Shown: positions 3,436-9,259, counted from the first letter of the stretch. The stretch is 64,000 nucleotides of DNA from Haloarcula salinisoli (GCF_019599405.1 NZ_RKLQ01000002.1:248001-312000); one strand, 5' to 3'. Translations and numbers: made by a program. Notes: generated by a model not told the origin, from the letters alone.

Positions 3436-3633
3436 CCGACGACCACATCCTGCTTTTCGAGACCTCACGAACTGACTGACCAATCTAACGGTCTTCGAGC
3501 CAATAGAGGATGTATTCTCTCACTTGGCCGAGTTCTATGTTTGCACGTGTATCTTTTTCGCTGATTCTGTGACAATCCAAAGAAAGAAGTCGGTACTGTC
3601 CTAACAGTGTCACACATCCACGGAGCTACCCCC

Positions 3634-3774
3634 ATGCCCGTGCTCAAACGACTCACGGACGCGCTCGGCGGCCGGAACGAGTCCTACGTCTGTCGGTTCT
3701 GCCGGCTCACATTCGAACGGGAGCGACGCAACTGCCCGGCCTGTGGCTGTGGCACGATAGAACCGGACCGGTAA
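3634..3774 (+). CDS. Small haloarchaeal zinc-ribbon protein
   Basis: A 46-residue frame from ATG 3634 to TAA 3774. Two Cys pairs, C20-x2-C23 (VCRFC) and C34-x2-C37 (CPAC), with a further Cys at 39, form a rubredoxin-like zinc ribbon in a basic N-terminal context (MPVLKRLTDALGGR). It ends with TIEPDR. The role is unknown. It sits alone between metY and the convergent serB. Confidence 0.75.
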   Translation: MPVLKRLTDALGGRNESYVCRFCRLTFERERRNCPACGCGTIEPDR

Positions 3775-3788
3775 GGCCGTCGCCGGCG

Positions 3789-4421
3789 CTACAGCACGTC
3801 TCGCTCTTCGAGCAGCGTGTACAGCTCGTCCATCGTCGAGACGGTCACGTCACACGCGGGCTCGACGGCGGGTTTCGGCTCGAAGCCGACGGCCAGTCCG
3901 GCGACTTCGAGCATCGGGAGGTCGTTGGCGCCGTCGCCGATGGCGATGGTATCCGACCGGTCCTCGCCGACGATAGCCGTCGCGACTTCCAGGGCGTCGT
4001 CTTTGGTGCCCTCGATGAGCGGGCCTTCGACCGCGCCGGTCAGTGCGCCGTCCGCGACCGGCAGGCGGTTGGCGACGATGGCGTCGACCTCGACGCCCTC
4101 CGTTTCGAGTGCAGCTTCGACCCCGCGGTCGAACCCGCCGGTCAGAATCGAGACGTAGTGGCCGGCCTCCCGTAGCGCGGCGATGACCTCGGCCGCGCCG
4201 GGGCGCAGCTCGACCTCGTCGAAGGCCGCCTGTGCCTGCTCGTCGGGCAGGTCAGCGAGCAGTTCACAGCGCTGGCGAAGGCTCTCGGCGTATTCTATCT
4301 CGTTGTTCATCGCCCGCTCGGTGATATCGGCCATGTCCTGGGCGGTGCCGTTCTGGTTGCCCAGCAACACGGTCATCTCCGAGTCGGAGAGGGTCCCGTC
4401 GAAGTCGAAGGCGACTAGCAT
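3789..4421 (-). CDS. serB: Phosphoserine phosphatase SerB
   Basis: A 210-residue HAD-superfamily hydrolase catalysing the last step of serine biosynthesis (O-phosphoserine to serine). Motif I is DFDGT at residues 6-10, with nucleophile D6 and acid/base D8. Motif II is S91-x-LTGG, motif III is K140 and motif IV is GDGAND at 162-167. The frame is open far upstream, but the natural start is ATG 4421, directly before LVAFDFDGTL. The upstream residues are not family-like. Length matches archaeal SerB. Confidence 0.93.
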   Translation of the reverse strand: MLVAFDFDGTLSDSEMTVLLGNQNGTAQDMADITERAMNNEIEYAESLRQRCELLADLPDEQAQAAFDEVELRPGAAEVIAALREAGHYVSILTGGFDRGVEAALETEGVEVDAIVANRLPVADGALTGAVEGPLIEGTKDDALEVATAIVGEDRSDTIAIGDGANDLPMLEVAGLAVGFEPKPAVEPACDVTVSTMDELYTLLEERDVL

Positions 4422-4545
4422 TGCGTGGTGGTTCTGGGCCAAACCTTTCAAACTATCCGGTTTCACCCGGGCGGCGAAAACCGATACACAGTGCTGTTGG
4501 AACGGACGTATCGGGGATAAAATGGGTGTGGTTGGCGAGACGTCG

Positions 4546-4668
4546 CTACGCCAATTCCAAACAGAAATAGGTTGTTCTCCAGAAGTCGCCGTGACACGAC
4601 GCGTTTTCACGCTCTTCAAGTTCGAAATCGGGGCTCTCGTCCAGGGATTCGATATAGTGGTCTGACAT
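4546..4668 (-). CDS. Candidate RiPP-type precursor peptide (40 aa)
   Basis: A 40-codon frame from ATG 4668 to TAG 4546, divergent from the ATP-grasp gene. The first 22 residues are strongly acidic (MSDHYIESLDESPDFELEE and on) and contain an F-x-L patch at 15-17, like leader motifs bound by RRE domains. The last 17, SCHGDFWRTTYFCLELA, change character: two Cys (25 and 36), Trp, Tyr, a Thr-Thr pair, Asp and Glu. That is a credible core for a cyclised or crosslinked peptide. An AT-rich TATA-like tract lies 18-35 nt upstream, which implies a leaderless transcript. Being real, and being the substrate of the neighbouring enzymes, are inferences; no homologue could be checked. Confidence 0.5.
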   Translation of the reverse strand: MSDHYIESLDESPDFELEERENASCHGDFWRTTYFCLELA

Positions 4669-4685
4669 CCCAATATGAAGGTTAG

Positions 4686-4703
4686 AAATAATAAATAATA
4701 AAT
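4686..4703 (-). promoter_or_regulatory. TATA-like promoter of the 40-aa peptide
   Basis: An uninterrupted A/T tract, read on the minus strand as TTTATTATTTATTATTTC, in otherwise GC-rich DNA. Its centre is about 27 nt ahead of ATG 4668, the usual spacing for a leaderless haloarchaeal transcript. Confidence 0.5.
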
Positions 4704-4730
4704 GTAGTGGTAGAAGAAATTAAATCACTG

Positions 4731-4749
4731 CGCGACTGCGGCAGTCGCG
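4731..4749. promoter_or_regulatory. Perfect palindrome midway between divergent promoters
   Basis: CGCGACTGCGGCAGTCGCG has 9-bp arms around one central G. The centre (4740) is about 45 nt from the TATA-like tract of the peptide gene (centre about 4695) and 46 nt from that of the ATP-grasp gene (about 4786). This is where a shared operator would sit. Alternatively, it belongs to the class of short perfect hairpins with 3-nt loops seen elsewhere in the window. Confidence 0.45.
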
Positions 4750-4773
4750 GGGGTCGTGGATTAGTATCTCACT

Positions 4774-4789
4774 CGAAAACGCTTATTTT
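4774..4789 (+). promoter_or_regulatory. BRE/TATA-like promoter of the ATP-grasp gene
   Basis: CGAAAACG (BRE-like) is followed by TTATTTT at 4783-4789, centred 26 nt before ATG 4812. This spacing supports ATG 4812 as a leaderless start rather than the in-frame ATG at 4803. Confidence 0.5.
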
Positions 4790-4811
4790 CCTATATCTGA
4801 AAATGAAATAT

Positions 4812-5765
4812 ATGTCTATTGTCGTCATCGGTCGGGCGGGGTTGGGTGAAATCCAGCTCCTCGAAGCAGCGCTCCGTGACCAGGGTGGTGACCCAATCGT
4901 CGTCGACATCTCCGAGTGGCCCGGCGGGGCTCCCATACGGCTCGACCCGGCGAGCGACGAGTTCGTCACGGACGCCCAGTTTTCCCTGGACGATGTCGGC
5001 AGCGTCTACGCCCACGCCCCCTCCCTGTTCCGACCAACAGATATCTGCTTCAAGAAACAGTTCGACGACCAGAACCCGTATTCGGCGTTGATACAGCTCA
5101 AGGAGTATCGCAGTCTCTTCGAAAGTCTCTGCCGGGTTTTCGAGTCGAACGGCGTTCCCGTGATTCCGAGCGAGTCCACCCACTACCTCCAGGAGCGAAA
5201 GCCCTGGCAGCTCCGCCAGTTCGAACAGCGGGACCTTCCGGTTCCAGATACGGTGTTTACCAACGACCCGTCGGTCGTCCGGGAGTTCTGTTCTGCACAC
5301 GAGCGGGTACTGTTCAAACCAGTATCCCGCGGGGCGGAGCCAAACGTCGTGACCGAGGCGGACCTGGACCCCGAGAAGCTCGCTAACCTCGAGACTGCGC
5401 CGGTCCAGTTCCAGGCGTTCGTCCCCGGCGAGGACCTCCGGGTCTACGTTCTCGACGGCGCGGTTGTCGGTGCGACCAGATACGAGAGCGAGGCCTACTC
5501 GTTCAAGGTCGCGGACCGGCGCGGCGAGGAGGTCGAGCTGGTCCCGGCGACGCTCTCATCTGAGGTCCGCGAGACAGCACTGGCTGCCGCAGACGCGACC
5601 GGACTCACCTTCGGCGCCGTCGATATCCGCCGACGTCCCGATGGCGGGCACGCGCTCCTCGAGGTGAACCAGACCCCCGCGTTCGCCTACGCCGATGCCA
5701 ACAGCGGCCAGTCTGTGAGCGATGCGCTGGCGAAGTACCTGACGACGACTGCCCACCAACCGTGA
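4812..5765 (+). CDS. ATP-grasp enzyme, putative peptide-modifying ligase
   Basis: A 317-residue ATP-grasp protein resembling RimK and MvdD-type peptide maturases. The N-terminal pre-ATP-grasp part (about 1-120) starts SIVVIGRAGLG. ATP-grasp landmarks are K130 (ERKPW), K169 (LFKPVSRG), the QAFVPGEDLRVYV strand with R210, D271 (DIRR) and E284/N286 (LLEVNQTP). The end, SGQSVSDALAKYL, is also like graspetide cyclases. Such enzymes form amide or ester bonds by acyl-phosphate activation. The following gene overlaps by 4 nt (GTGA), so the two should be co-translated. Substrate and bond type cannot be read from sequence; glutamate ligase activity is the main alternative. ATG 4812 was chosen from promoter spacing; ATG 4803 is possible. 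Confidence 0.8.
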   Translation: MSIVVIGRAGLGEIQLLEAALRDQGGDPIVVDISEWPGGAPIRLDPASDEFVTDAQFSLDDVGSVYAHAPSLFRPTDICFKKQFDDQNPYSALIQLKEYRSLFESLCRVFESNGVPVIPSESTHYLQERKPWQLRQFEQRDLPVPDTVFTNDPSVVREFCSAHERVLFKPVSRGAEPNVVTEADLDPEKLANLETAPVQFQAFVPGEDLRVYVLDGAVVGATRYESEAYSFKVADRRGEEVELVPATLSSEVRETALAAADATGLTFGAVDIRRRPDGGHALLEVNQTPAFAYADANSGQSVSDALAKYLTTTAHQP

Positions 5766-6736
5766 CGCCCGAGACTGAGACCACGATTCCAGACGGCGAG
5801 TTCGGTTTCACCTGGGGAGCCACGGAGTCGCTCTGGTACCTGCTGGACAGTGATGGGGGACTTCGGGGCGTCTCGGAGGACGTCGTCACGATGCTCCGGG
5901 ACTTGGCCACCGGCGAACTCTCAAGGGACGAACTGCCGGACAATGCGGCCACCGTCCTCGACCGCTTGATAGAGCAGGGGTACGTCCGCCAGAACGGCCC
6001 CGTCGAACGGGTGGTCACACCCGACGATATCCGATTCTGGCCACGGGCGGCGCTGTTCCTCGGTCTGGCCTCGGTACTGGTCACCGTCGCCGCGTCACAG
6101 ATCGGCTCACTTCCGAACAGTGTGAGCGCACTGACCCCGTTCGATATCGTGACTGTCGTGGCCCTCACAATCGTCACGATACTCGTTCACGAGGGGGGCC
6201 ACTACGTCGCGTCCCGGCCGTACTTCGACCCCTCGCTCCAGCTCTCGACGATGAACGGCATTATCCCGGTCTTGACCACGAAGACCCACGAGGCCTGGAT
6301 ACTTCCCCGTAATGTGCGGCGGTGGATCAGTCTGGCCGGGCCCTTCGTGGAGGTAAGCTTCATCCTGTCGGTCGTCGGCGCCACCGTCGGGGCGGCCGGC
6401 TGGACGCTCGGACTCCAGCTCTACGTCATCGGGTCGGTGTTCCGGATTGCCGGCAGTCTCTGTCCACTGTTCCACGGCGACGGCTACTGGCTGTTCGTGG
6501 ACACGTTCGGACTCGTGAACGTCCGAAAACGTGGCCTGGAGGACTTCCGCGAACGGACGATTTCGGGGCCGTCGGCATACATCGTCGTCTCGTATGCGTT
6601 CGCCGGCATCCTCATCTCCGTCTCGTTGATTTCGATGCTCCTCAGGGGCCCGGTCGGTATCGCGGTGGCCGCCGTCTGGGGCCTGGTCGTCCTCTACGCG
6701 AAACGGGACCGCCTGCCAGGGGCACAGCTCGGGTGA
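5762..6736 (+). CDS. PqqD-like (RRE) domain fused to membrane M50-type metalloprotease
   Basis: A 324-residue protein starting at GTG 5762, overlapping the ATP-grasp stop. Residues about 12-78 form a small winged-helix unit (ESLWYLLDSDGG, VVTMLRDLATGELSRDELP, VLDRLIEQGYV), the layout of PqqD-like RiPP recognition elements. Membrane segments follow. The one at about 125-142 leads into HEGGH (143-147), a complete HEXXH zinc site. HGDGYWLFVD (238-247) matches the LDGYYLLSD-type motif of M50 peptide zinc metalloproteases such as YydH. Hydrophobic segments at about 195-235 and 270-312 complete the membrane domain. The likely role is to bind a leader peptide and cleave or help export it. The fusion and coupling to an ATP-grasp enzyme point to peptide maturation. 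Confidence 0.8.
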   Translation: MTPETETTIPDGEFGFTWGATESLWYLLDSDGGLRGVSEDVVTMLRDLATGELSRDELPDNAATVLDRLIEQGYVRQNGPVERVVTPDDIRFWPRAALFLGLASVLVTVAASQIGSLPNSVSALTPFDIVTVVALTIVTILVHEGGHYVASRPYFDPSLQLSTMNGIIPVLTTKTHEAWILPRNVRRWISLAGPFVEVSFILSVVGATVGAAGWTLGLQLYVIGSVFRIAGSLCPLFHGDGYWLFVDTFGLVNVRKRGLEDFRERTISGPSAYIVVSYAFAGILISVSLISMLLRGPVGIAVAAVWGLVVLYAKRDRLPGAQLG

Positions 6737-6746
6737 CCCGAAACAG

Positions 6747-6792
6747 GGACCTCACTCCGTTCGGTCCTGCGAACCGGTGGCGAAGCCACCGG
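6747..6792. repeat. Two hairpins between convergent genes
   Basis: The first hairpin is GGACC (6747-6751), 11-nt loop TCACTCCGTTC, GGTCC (6763-6767). The second is CCGGTGGC (6774-6781), loop GAA, GCCACCGG (6785-6792). The first belongs to the constant 11-nt loop family. They sit between the stops of the protease and helicase genes and could act as a bidirectional 3' end. Confidence 0.7.
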
Positions 6793-6800
6793 ACACGCAG

Positions 6801-9002
6801 CTACGGCTTCGGCGGTGGCCCGTCGTAGGCGCCCATATCCTGATAGAAGTTCAACAGCGCGAACTTCAACTTCTCGGGGCCGATGTCGACCATCTCCTTG
6901 CGCTCCTCGGGCGGGAACCGGCCGCGGACGGCGTAGTCGTGCATCTCCATCTCCGCCGCTTCGGTGTAGCGCTTATCCAGCAGGATGCGCGCGCCGAAGT
7001 CCTCTGGCGAGCGGACCACCCGGCCCAGGGCCTGTCTGGTCTTTCTGACAGTGGGAATCTCGACGGCGTAGCGCCAGCCGGCCTCGTCGTCCTTCGAGGC
7101 CTCCCGGTGGTCGCCCTCGCCCTCCCCGAACGCGGTCTGGTAGGCGTCCTGGACCGCTTCCATCCGGTCGTCCAGATGGGGATAGGGCACGCCCAGCACG
7201 ACGACGGTCCGGGCGTCGTCGCCGTCGTAGCTCACGCCCTCGCCCAGCGTCCCCCACAGCGAGGTAAAGAGGACGGCGCCGTCGTCGTCGGTGAAAGCCT
7301 CCCGCAGGTCGCGGGCCTGTTTGCCCGGTTCGTCAAGATACCGGGTCCCGGAGACGGCCACCATCTGGTGGTAGCGCTCGGCCTCGCTGTAGGAGGGGCA
7401 GAAGACGAGCGTGTTTCCGGGGGTAAAGCGGATGATATCCTCCAGGGTTCGCGCTATCGTGCGCTGGGTCTCGGGGTCGTCCCGTTCGCTGGAAAACAGC
7501 GCCGGCCCGGAGACGGCGTAGGTCCGGCGCCGGTCTTCCGGAAACTGGTCGCCGTAGGCCATCGTCACCGGCTCGTCCAGGCCGACGACGTCCTCGGTCA
7601 CGTCGAAGGGGCGGACGGTGGCGCTCATCAACACGGCGGCGTGCAGATCGTCGAACAGCTCGCGGGTCACCTGCTCCGGGATGCAGGTGTACAGCTCCGC
7701 GCGGCCGTAGACCTCGCTCGTGGACTCGTCCCGTCGGACGCTGACGACGGGGTACTGCCCGGTGGCGTCCGATTCGGAGAGCCAGTCGGCCAGAAAGCCC
7801 GCTGCCTGGAGCGTCTGGCACTCCTTGCGGGTGTCCAGTTCCCCCTCTTTGAACTGCTCCTCGTAGCGCTCGTCGAGTTCCCGACCGAGGTCCAGCGCCA
7901 GGTCGACCTCCTCGTGAAAGCCCGGCCCGCTGTAGGCCTGGAAGAACGAGAGGGTCAGATCGTCCTTCCGGTCGTCGTTCGCGATGGTGATGTCGTCCCA
8001 GTGCTCGTCGACGGCCTCGCGGTCGCCAAATCCAAACGAATCCTCGTAGGTCTCGACCAGCGCGTCCCGAAAGGTACCCAGCACGTTCGCGGCGTTCTCG
8101 GCTCGCGAGTCCTCGACGCCGGAGAGCTCCTCGATGGCCTGGTCTACGGTGTTCTCGGTCAGCGTACGGCGGGCGTGGTCGCGAGCGGCGGACTCGACGT
8201 TGTGGGCCTCGTCGAAGACGGCGATGATGTCCTCGGGGTCCCGGCCGATCCAGCGGAAGAACTGCTCGCGGATGGTCGGGTCCAGCAGGTGATGATAGTT
8301 ACAGACGACGAGGTCGACGCCCTCCATCCCCTCCTTGAGGAGCTCGTACCCACACAGCCCCCGGTCGCCGGCGTACTCGTAGACGTCGTCGGGCGTGCGC
8401 ACGTCGTCGTAGAGCCAGGCGTAGAACTCGCTGGTGTCGACGGTGAGGTTCCGGTAGTAGTGGTCACAGGTCGACCGTTCGCTCTCGAGTTCGTCCATCT
8501 CTTCCTGGAGGTCCCGCAGCTCCTCGACGACGGCGTTGCGGGCCTCCATCGCCTCGCTGTCACCGTCCTGGCCCGCCGCCAGTAGCTCCCCCTCGCGCTC
8601 TTCCAGCTGAGCGATGTCTTCCTCCACGTCGACGAGTTCCCGGGTCGTGTCCCGCAGGGCCTGGCACTCCTCGTAGTCCACGTCGATGTGACACATCGAC
8701 CCCTTCCCCCGGAAGACGACCGCACGGAGCCGCTCCTGTTCGGTGATGGCGCGGGCGTCCTCGACGAACTGGCGCATCTGCTGGTGGACGTTGGTCGTGA
8801 TGACGACGGTCTTGCCCGTCTCGCGGGCGTGTTCCAGCGCCGGGACCAGCGACGCGAGCGTCTTCCCCGTTCCGCAGGCCCCCTCGAAGAGCACGTCGTC
8901 GCCCTCCCCCAGCGCCTCGTAGATGGTGTCCATCGCCTCCCGCTGGTGGTCGTAGGGCTCCTCGAAGGGGAAAAAGCGTAGATAGCCGTCGTCTGTCGTC
9001 AC
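6801..9002 (-). CDS. XPD/Rad3-like superfamily 2 DNA helicase
   Basis: A 733-residue 5'-3' helicase of the XPD/Rad3/DinG group, expected in DNA repair. The order is DHQREAM, Walker A GACGTGKT (41-48), DEAH (264-267) and a C-terminal helicase domain with ALGRVVRSPEDFGARILLD. Four Cys that could hold the Fe-S cluster are C104, C113, C179 and C217. The stretch between C113 and C179 is Glu/Leu-rich and probably a coiled coil. I chose GTG 9002 (VTTDDGYLRFFPF), because the open frame further upstream runs into hairpin-rich non-coding DNA. It is convergent with the M50 gene. Confidence 0.9.
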   Translation of the reverse strand: MTTDDGYLRFFPFEEPYDHQREAMDTIYEALGEGDDVLFEGACGTGKTLASLVPALEHARETGKTVVITTNVHQQMRQFVEDARAITEQERLRAVVFRGKGSMCHIDVDYEECQALRDTTRELVDVEEDIAQLEEREGELLAAGQDGDSEAMEARNAVVEELRDLQEEMDELESERSTCDHYYRNLTVDTSEFYAWLYDDVRTPDDVYEYAGDRGLCGYELLKEGMEGVDLVVCNYHHLLDPTIREQFFRWIGRDPEDIIAVFDEAHNVESAARDHARRTLTENTVDQAIEELSGVEDSRAENAANVLGTFRDALVETYEDSFGFGDREAVDEHWDDITIANDDRKDDLTLSFFQAYSGPGFHEEVDLALDLGRELDERYEEQFKEGELDTRKECQTLQAAGFLADWLSESDATGQYPVVSVRRDESTSEVYGRAELYTCIPEQVTRELFDDLHAAVLMSATVRPFDVTEDVVGLDEPVTMAYGDQFPEDRRRTYAVSGPALFSSERDDPETQRTIARTLEDIIRFTPGNTLVFCPSYSEAERYHQMVAVSGTRYLDEPGKQARDLREAFTDDDGAVLFTSLWGTLGEGVSYDGDDARTVVVLGVPYPHLDDRMEAVQDAYQTAFGEGEGDHREASKDDEAGWRYAVEIPTVRKTRQALGRVVRSPEDFGARILLDKRYTEAAEMEMHDYAVRGRFPPEERKEMVDIGPEKLKFALLNFYQDMGAYDGPPPKP

Positions 9003-9089
9003 TGGGGGGTAGTTGGCCGCTATCGGGCAAAAGGGTTCGGCCCTAGGAACAGTATGCGATACGTCTGATAGTGGTGCCGGGACCCCGAA

Positions 9090-9259
9090 CCGCCAGAAAG
9101 CCCCCGACCGTTCGAGTGCCGATAGGCTCACTTCGCTCGCCTATCGAGGTTTCGTTCGCTTCGCTCACGAAACTGCCGGGGCTCGCTGCGCGCCTCGCTT
9201 CGCTCGGTGCTAGCGTCGCCCAGGCTACTCGAACGGTCGGCCCCTTTCAGTCCCACCCG
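9090..9259. repeat. Hairpin cluster bounded by a 14-bp inverted repeat
   Basis: CGCCAGAAAGCCC leads into one arm, CCGACCGTTCGAGT (9104-9117); its exact complement lies at 9227-9240, followed by CCCCTTTCAGTCCCACCC. Inside are two hairpins of the constant-loop family: GATAGGC/GCCTATC (9121-9145, loop TCACTTCGCTC) and GTTTCGT/ACGAAAC (9049+100 offset, 9149-9173, loop TCGCTTCGCTC). The flanking GCCAGAAAG and CAGTCCCACCC motifs recur at 25801-25961. No gene is seen in 9003-9350, which presumably also carries the promoters of both flanking genes. Confidence 0.7.

Follow-up and report, generated by a model that had tools for sequence, protein, structure and literature searches.

A predicted graspetide-type peptide pathway of haloarchaea that pairs an ATP-grasp enzyme with an RRE-M50 fusion protease

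What might be made by three closely packed genes, one of them only 40 codons long, that lie between a phosphatase gene and a helicase gene in a haloarchaeon? The locus is part of a stretch of 64,000 nucleotides (here called the window; it begins at base 248001 of contig C2) of the 4.03-Mb genome of Haloarcula salinisoli. Flanked on one side by a serB-like gene for a HAD-family phosphatase (3789-4424, minus strand) and on the other by a gene for an XPD/Rad3-like helicase (6801-9131, minus strand; Pfam), the genes encode a peptide of 40 residues (MSDHYIESLDESPDFELEERENASCHGDFWRTTYFCLELA; 4546-4668, minus strand, ATG to TAG), an ATP-grasp enzyme of 317 residues (4812-5765, plus strand) and an M50-type protease of 324 residues (5762-6736, plus strand, GTG start). 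The longest frame of the ATP-grasp gene opens at 4707 and its homologues begin at M4812; the peptide gene is divergent from it, at a distance of 143 nt from its start. The ATP-grasp stop and the M50 start overlap by four nucleotides (GTGA, 5762..5765, plus strand), through which the two genes are likely coupled translationally. The first-pass annotation had described this layout, with its 40-codon peptide, divergent ATP-grasp gene and 4-nt overlap with the fusion gene, accurately. A 55-residue frame resembling a four-cysteine zinc ribbon (3607-3774, plus strand) has no Pfam match and shares 50-75% identity with sister species. The reading favored here, to which we assign a probability of roughly 0.78, is that the locus encodes a graspetide-type RiPP pathway of haloarchaea, consisting of a precursor, a macrocyclase and an RRE-M50 leader peptidase.

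By homology, the ATP-grasp enzyme is a PsnB-like macrocyclase. Its profile matched PDB entry 7drm over the full length (2.4e-73); entries 7drm-7drp are PsnB, the plesiocin synthetase. With the same profile, other graspetide synthetases scored between 1e-23 and 1e-28, and enzymes of the RimK/LysX type between 1e-10 and 1e-18. The best NCBIfam match of the window protein was TIGR04187 ("ATP-grasp ribosomal peptide maturase"), which all 15 members match, but its 97.9 bits lie far below the curated cut-off of 350 and do not place it within that subfamily. All members also match MvdC, MvdD and RimK-type models. When the PsnB sequence was compared with a plasmid collection, the closest enzyme was that of a type II locus (see below) of Halocatena (37%); bacterial PsnB relatives on plasmids (L036 and L037) were accompanied by no small frame with a FIEDL-like motif. 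K169, R210, D271, E284 and N286 are present in the window protein, and the last four are invariant in 24 ATP-grasps and PsnB. R210 is aligned with the arginine of PsnB (Arg213) that reportedly, in work by Song and colleagues from 2021, recognizes the ring-forming acid. Judged by these matches, the enzyme groups with the graspetide synthetases and not with RimK/LysX, and its predicted catalytic residues are kept, which supports the first-pass interpretation. In one paralogue of the loci termed type IV below (L031, 4596-5549; L066, 9427-10635; L067, 9376-10470), Gln replaces Lys169 of the ATP site, so that this protein is possibly a noncatalytic partner.

The coupled gene encodes, again by homology, an RRE-M50 fusion protease. 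Its HEGGH zinc motif (H143, E144 and H147; 6188..6202, plus strand) and its second M50 motif, P-x3-G-D-G-Y (residues 234-242; 6461..6487, plus strand), correspond to the HExxH and P-x3-GDG motifs that are invariant in 15 sequences (H143, E144, H147, P235, G239, D240 and G241), and the protein has about five hydrophobic stretches. With HExxH, an Asp ligand in the second motif and membrane segments, it has the predicted make-up of an M50 membrane metalloprotease. The Pfam M50 model gave a weak match in all 15 members, with the window protein below the cut-off; the protease part matched daptide_HExxH in 15 of 15 (best 2.8e-20) and YydH/LiaK in 11 of 15. Residues 12-80 (5795..6001, plus strand), folded alone with one homologue, yielded a confident AF2 model of a winged helix (pLDDT 90.1, pTM 0.77; strand-strand-strand-helix-(helix)-helix), the leading structural matches of which were nearly all RREs (Z 4-7.4), namely those of lasso peptide, sactipeptide, microcin, cyanobactin and thiopeptide enzymes. 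Foldseek ranked the RRE of PbtF first, although weakly (E-value 0.28), and hhalign aligned the N-terminus with archaeal PqqD at a probability of 84%, with shuffled controls much lower. By its modeled fold, the N-terminus is an RRE; the PqqD-like domain fused to a HEXXH protease that had been proposed at first pass is thus recovered by the model, the structural matches, hhalign and the invariant motifs alike. Distant M50 homologues from other archaeal classes also carry a PqqD-like N-terminal domain; in genome G552, this domain has a Pfam match that is significant and in frame with the M50 part. Longer PqqD-like/M50 fusions, in frames of 392-495 codons, were observed in non-haloarchaeal archaea (L068, 2746-3921; L069, 5713-6978; L070, 6824-8140; L071, 6806-8290; all minus strand), with no graspetide-type ATP-grasp in the stretches examined.

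A 40-codon frame alone would be meaningless; taken together with its conservation, linkage and substitution pattern, however, it is by these indications a genuine gene. Searches carried out first with the M50 sequence and then with an M50 profile yielded 19 complete ATP-grasp/M50 pairs in 17 haloarchaeal genomes, and all 19 had a relative of the peptide beside them, a frame of 30-47 codons within ∼20-350 nt that has a leader box close to its start and varies in its C-terminal part. The first-pass expectation of a conserved frame of 30-60 codons adjoining homologous pairs was therefore confirmed. Depending on the genome, the peptide gene lies upstream or downstream of the pair and on either strand; its linkage to the pair is therefore no by-product of an operon. 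The peptide profile was built from 14 loci, the frames of which had been found by similarity and inspection. Applied unchanged to five later pairs, it gave exactly one match each, at the expected place (E 9e-11 to 1.3e-6), to peptides with 16-22 residues in common with the nearest training sequence; these pairs are not fully independent, as they come from a single genus that also gave training loci. With the window peptide as query, tblastn returned a 23-residue match of 70% beside a second pair (6.5e-7). Among 382 haloarchaeal genomes, the profile scored below 1e-9 in only 13, all of which carry the pair. The L028 and L029 peptides differ by nine synonymous and two nonsynonymous changes (∼25 synonymous and 92 nonsynonymous sites), a pattern that speaks for purifying selection on such near-identical peptides; among close relatives in general, most substitutions are synonymous.

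By alignment, residues 1-22 of the window peptide (4603..4668, minus strand) are the leader part, with the box H-Y-I-E ... L-E-E-R-E-N; the corresponding box of the family is H-[FY]-[IV]-E-x-L ... E-x-R-x-[NST], in which R20 is invariant and H4 and E18 occur in at least 90% of the sequences. Residues 23-40 (ASCHGDFWRTTYFCLELA; 4549..4602, minus strand) are the presumed core, the boundary being placed where conservation ends. A TATA-like, T-rich box ∼20-35 nt 5′ of the ATG (4688..4703, minus strand) is, by its consensus position, the putative promoter of the peptide gene; a T-rich box occurs ∼30-40 nt 5′ of most of the 19 peptide ATGs, and the stretch 5′ of these ATGs contains 64-85% A+T, compared with a background of 36%. 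The peptide has no Pfam match and no significant NCBIfam match, a type II relative found no match in the PDB, and the rest of the window's genome yielded no paralogues. The two RefSeq records that were checked annotate no gene at the peptide positions, and annotation-based mining could therefore miss such precursors. An orphan leader-like sequence (DVHSVEDLEERSNAPPMATVLAPA) was also observed within a 168-codon frame of genome G203 (L149, 6855-7358, minus strand), where neither an ATP-grasp nor an M50 of this family occurs within 14 kb.

Only the peptide, the ATP-grasp and the M50 protease are common to all 19 loci; no third conserved gene (exporter, immunity or regulator) was found across clades in the neighborhoods. 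The ATP-grasp gene lies immediately 5′ of the M50 gene in 16 of the pairs, and at L031, L066 and L067, two ATP-grasp paralogues adjoin the M50 gene on the opposite strand. Two pairs, each on a plasmid, belong to RefSeq genomes (Halorussus salilacus and Halocatena salina). Exceptions to strict linkage are an ATP-grasp/peptide without M50 (L148; see below) and an M50 without both partners nearby (L018). The three linked genes have a sporadic, cassette-like distribution. Many congeners of the window's host have serB and rad3 side by side, only ∼80-100 nt apart (L133, L134, L142, L143 and L146, for example), and in others the gap holds different cargo, that is, a cupin-like gene, a toxin-antitoxin-like pair or a membrane protein. 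In the window it measures 2.4 kb (4425-6800) and is filled by the cassette. The M50 gene was absent from all ∼20 same-genus genomes searched, and no cassette remnants were found in the gap of sister species; as the gap is short or otherwise filled and M50 is lacking, the cassette was presumably gained recently or is often lost. By this comparison, the serB-rad3 gap is an indel hot spot and the cassette accessory. Viral contigs contained no relatives of the ATP-grasp or the M50 protease. A contig scan with a single M50 sequence returned one locus only, L018, from a haloarchaeal MAG (5019-5915), where the M50 homologue has no ATP-grasp or recognizable peptide within 10.9 kb. In genome G377, a fragment comprising the C-terminal ∼63 residues of M50 (L032, 6956-7204, plus strand) is probably the remainder of a decayed cassette. 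At L025, an ABC transporter ATPase gene (5238-6218, plus strand) with a likely permease beside it lies directly 5′ of the ATP-grasp gene; it is the only adjoining transporter noted and is not kept at other loci.

The peptides fall into four types, parallel to the tree of the ATP-grasps. Type I (window, L019, L020, L021, L063 and L065) has a long leader and a short core; in type II (L022-L024 and L026-L029), HFVEDLEERxNA is followed by TT[LM]AxGE(E); type III (L025, L030 and L064) contains TxxxS[CT]xxx[ED]xx, and type IV (L031, L066 and L067, with two ATP-grasps each) TxxTSxPxxD. The spacing [ST]x4[DE] is present in 15 of 15 acid-bearing cores, compared with an expectation of ∼5 of 19 cores and none of 5,000 shuffles, a statistic that has to be read with the fact that the pattern was seen before testing, that eight spacings were tried, that +9 is also enriched, and that relatedness inflates it. 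In the window core, the Ser/Thr-acid pair at +5 is T33-E38, the putative donor/acceptor pair. Four of the six type I cores (L020, L021, L063 and L065), the enzymes of which are closest to that of the window, lack Asp and Glu altogether (TYYTGGCIAYC, TVVSTPITWFGG, PALTGVMGNVYFGA and TRVTCPLSC), and an ω-ester within the core is therefore impossible as their product. Their enzymes may cyclize the peptide onto its C-terminus or use other chemistry, and, four of six cores being acid-free, a loss of 18 Da per crosslink cannot, judged from the sequences, be taken for granted in the clade of the window. An extra ATP-grasp with its own precursor (MEHFVEDLNESDVEQTDRKADEAPPTPITWFGG) was observed in genome G147 (L127, 399-1542; L148, G147:C9), with no M50 of the family in 15 kb; it is perhaps served in trans by the other locus of that genome. 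This peptide was located by a weak profile match (7.8e-4). Compared with that of L021, it is identical in MxHFVEDLNESDV and in TPITWFGG, with several synonymous differences, and unlike in the 12 residues between. The acid-free core TPITWFGG is thus letter-identical in two species (L021 and L127), and the identical ends with a diverged middle indicate that leader, spacer and core are separable and that the acid-free core is under selection.

Two of the features expected of a graspetide, a homologous synthetase with kept residues and a short precursor with a conserved leader beside it, were found. The nearest relative of solved structure over the full length of the ATP-grasp is PsnB, which acts on the plesiocin precursor PsnA. 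Plesiocin has the leader motif LFIEDL, which the box HF[IV]EDL resembles, and the core motif TTxxxxEE. The latter is fitted by type II cores, TTxAxGE(E), at L024, L026 and L027, but not by the window core, TTYFCLEL, with its single acid (plesiocin belongs to group 2). Plesiocin carries several core repeats, in contrast to the single core of 9-29 residues in the haloarchaeal cassette, which is furthermore archaeal and paired with an RRE-M50 protease. The protease has a close parallel in the daptide peptidase MpaP, an RRE-dependent intramembrane peptidase (PMC10036551) in which an RRE is likewise fused to a leader-removing HExxH protease. All 15 members match the MpaP model (NF041824) with their protease part, to which the match is confined; the window protein reaches 29.6 bits against a cut-off of 300. 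The oxidative decarboxylase, aminotransferase and methyltransferase of daptide loci are not recurrent in the cassette neighborhoods, which contain an ATP-grasp instead. YydH/EpeP/LiaK (NF058609) is a membrane M50 maturation protease as well, for which no RRE is noted in PMC10885120; EpeP is probably also an exporter (PMC10885120). An epipeptide radical-SAM epimerase was not found to recur beside the cassette pairs.

Taken together, the following pathway is proposed. The peptide gene would be transcribed from its own promoter, and the leader box of its product would be bound by the ATP-grasp, which would convert a carboxylate of the peptide into an acyl phosphate and join it to a Thr or Ser side chain. 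In the window, this would most likely connect Glu38 to Thr33 and give one small macrolactone. The RRE of the coupled M50 protease would then grip the same leader and carry the modified peptide to the zinc site in the membrane, where M50 would remove the leader. As no dedicated exporter is conserved, the short product would exit by way of the protease or together with it. For this RRE-guided cleavage and release, MpaP (PMC10036551) and EpeP (PMC10885120) are direct precedents. Graspetides characterized up to 2022 were protease inhibitors (PMC8939145), and candidate roles of the product are antagonism, signaling and the inhibition of serine proteases that haloarchaea secrete. The precursor family at 19 of 19 pairs and the RiPP homology of both enzymes support what the first-pass annotation had read as a RiPP-like locus.

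The acid-free cores bear on a different course of the reaction, in which the ATP-grasp would activate the C-terminal carboxylate of the peptide and form a side-chain-to-tail lactone or thiolactone, similar to autoinducing peptides, at least in the clade of the window. Beside the four acid-free cores of this clade, the preservation of TPITWFGG between L021 and L127 with synonymous changes, despite the diverged spacer, is in line with it, as is the Cys or Thr that the peptides of L020, L021, L065 and the window have at position −5 from their end. However, L019 and L063 have no Cys, Ser or Thr at −5, the arginine aligned with the acid-recognizing residue of PsnB is kept also in the enzymes with acid-free cores, an acid is fixed at +5 from Ser/Thr in the other peptide types, and, to our knowledge, no known graspetide synthetase activates a peptide C-terminus. 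We therefore consider it unlikely, and just as doubtful is its fuller version, that acid-free Thr, Ser or Cys side-chain-to-tail rings are formed by the ATP-grasp of this clade and trimmed and exported by RRE-M50. Far less probable still is that the ATP-grasp acts as a RimK-like ligase that attaches an amino acid to the peptide, and that M50 then cuts the modified residue off. The enzyme does belong to the RimK superfamily, the peptide is short and acidic, and the M50 proteases TglG and TmoG cleave modified residues from scaffold peptides (PMC10885120), but the graspetide synthetases are closest over the full length, RimK-type enzymes are ∼55 orders of magnitude weaker, and a scaffold should keep its C-terminus, which here is the most variable part. 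That the short peptide serves as a regulatory leader or is an antisense product, with the enzymes acting on another substrate, could be suspected from its divergent position in the window but is hardly credible, given that its sequence is kept though side and strand change between genomes, that it is substituted in the manner of coding sequence, and that it co-occurs with the pair.

The graspetide-type pathway with an RRE-M50 leader peptidase has parts that are known already, namely graspetides and the RRE-M50 fusion of daptides; apparently new is their combination in haloarchaea. The arrangement had at first been called undescribed, which does not hold for the fusion as such (daptide MpaP, PMC10036551; PqqD-M50 in other archaea) but, in the literature searched, does for its combination with an ATP-grasp in haloarchaea. 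In the main texts of openly accessible papers, no haloarchaeal graspetides and no pairing of a graspetide synthetase with RRE-M50 were found to be described. As far as its main text goes, a 2026 graspetide survey (PMC13097080) distinguishes 43 groups that combine ATP-grasp and precursor as here, several with neighboring proteases; it proposes one archaeal group, reports group 36 only from Thermoprotea, and mentions neither a haloarchaeal group nor an RRE-M50 partner, with overlap between the cassette and one of the 43 groups possible. That halophiles make RiPPs is demonstrated by archaeal lanthipeptides (PMC12144867), which also come from haloarchaea but are made by different enzymes; graspetides and ATP-grasps are unmentioned there. 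If the proposal is true, graspetide-type peptides extend to haloarchaea in a minimal form of ∼2.2 kb, of which precursor, cyclase and leader peptidase are identified, and one leader code is common to four precursor types with different cores. As the candidate leader peptidase comes with a leader-binding domain fused to it, the cleavage step would be directly testable, and haloarchaeal hosts for the expression of RiPPs are already available (PMC12144867). The subgroup with acid-free cores, predicted to be unable to form the usual crosslink, raises a sharp chemical question: should its rings close on the C-terminus, it would provide an archaeal, autoinducer-like cyclic peptide from an enzyme family for which only side-chain joining is assumed.
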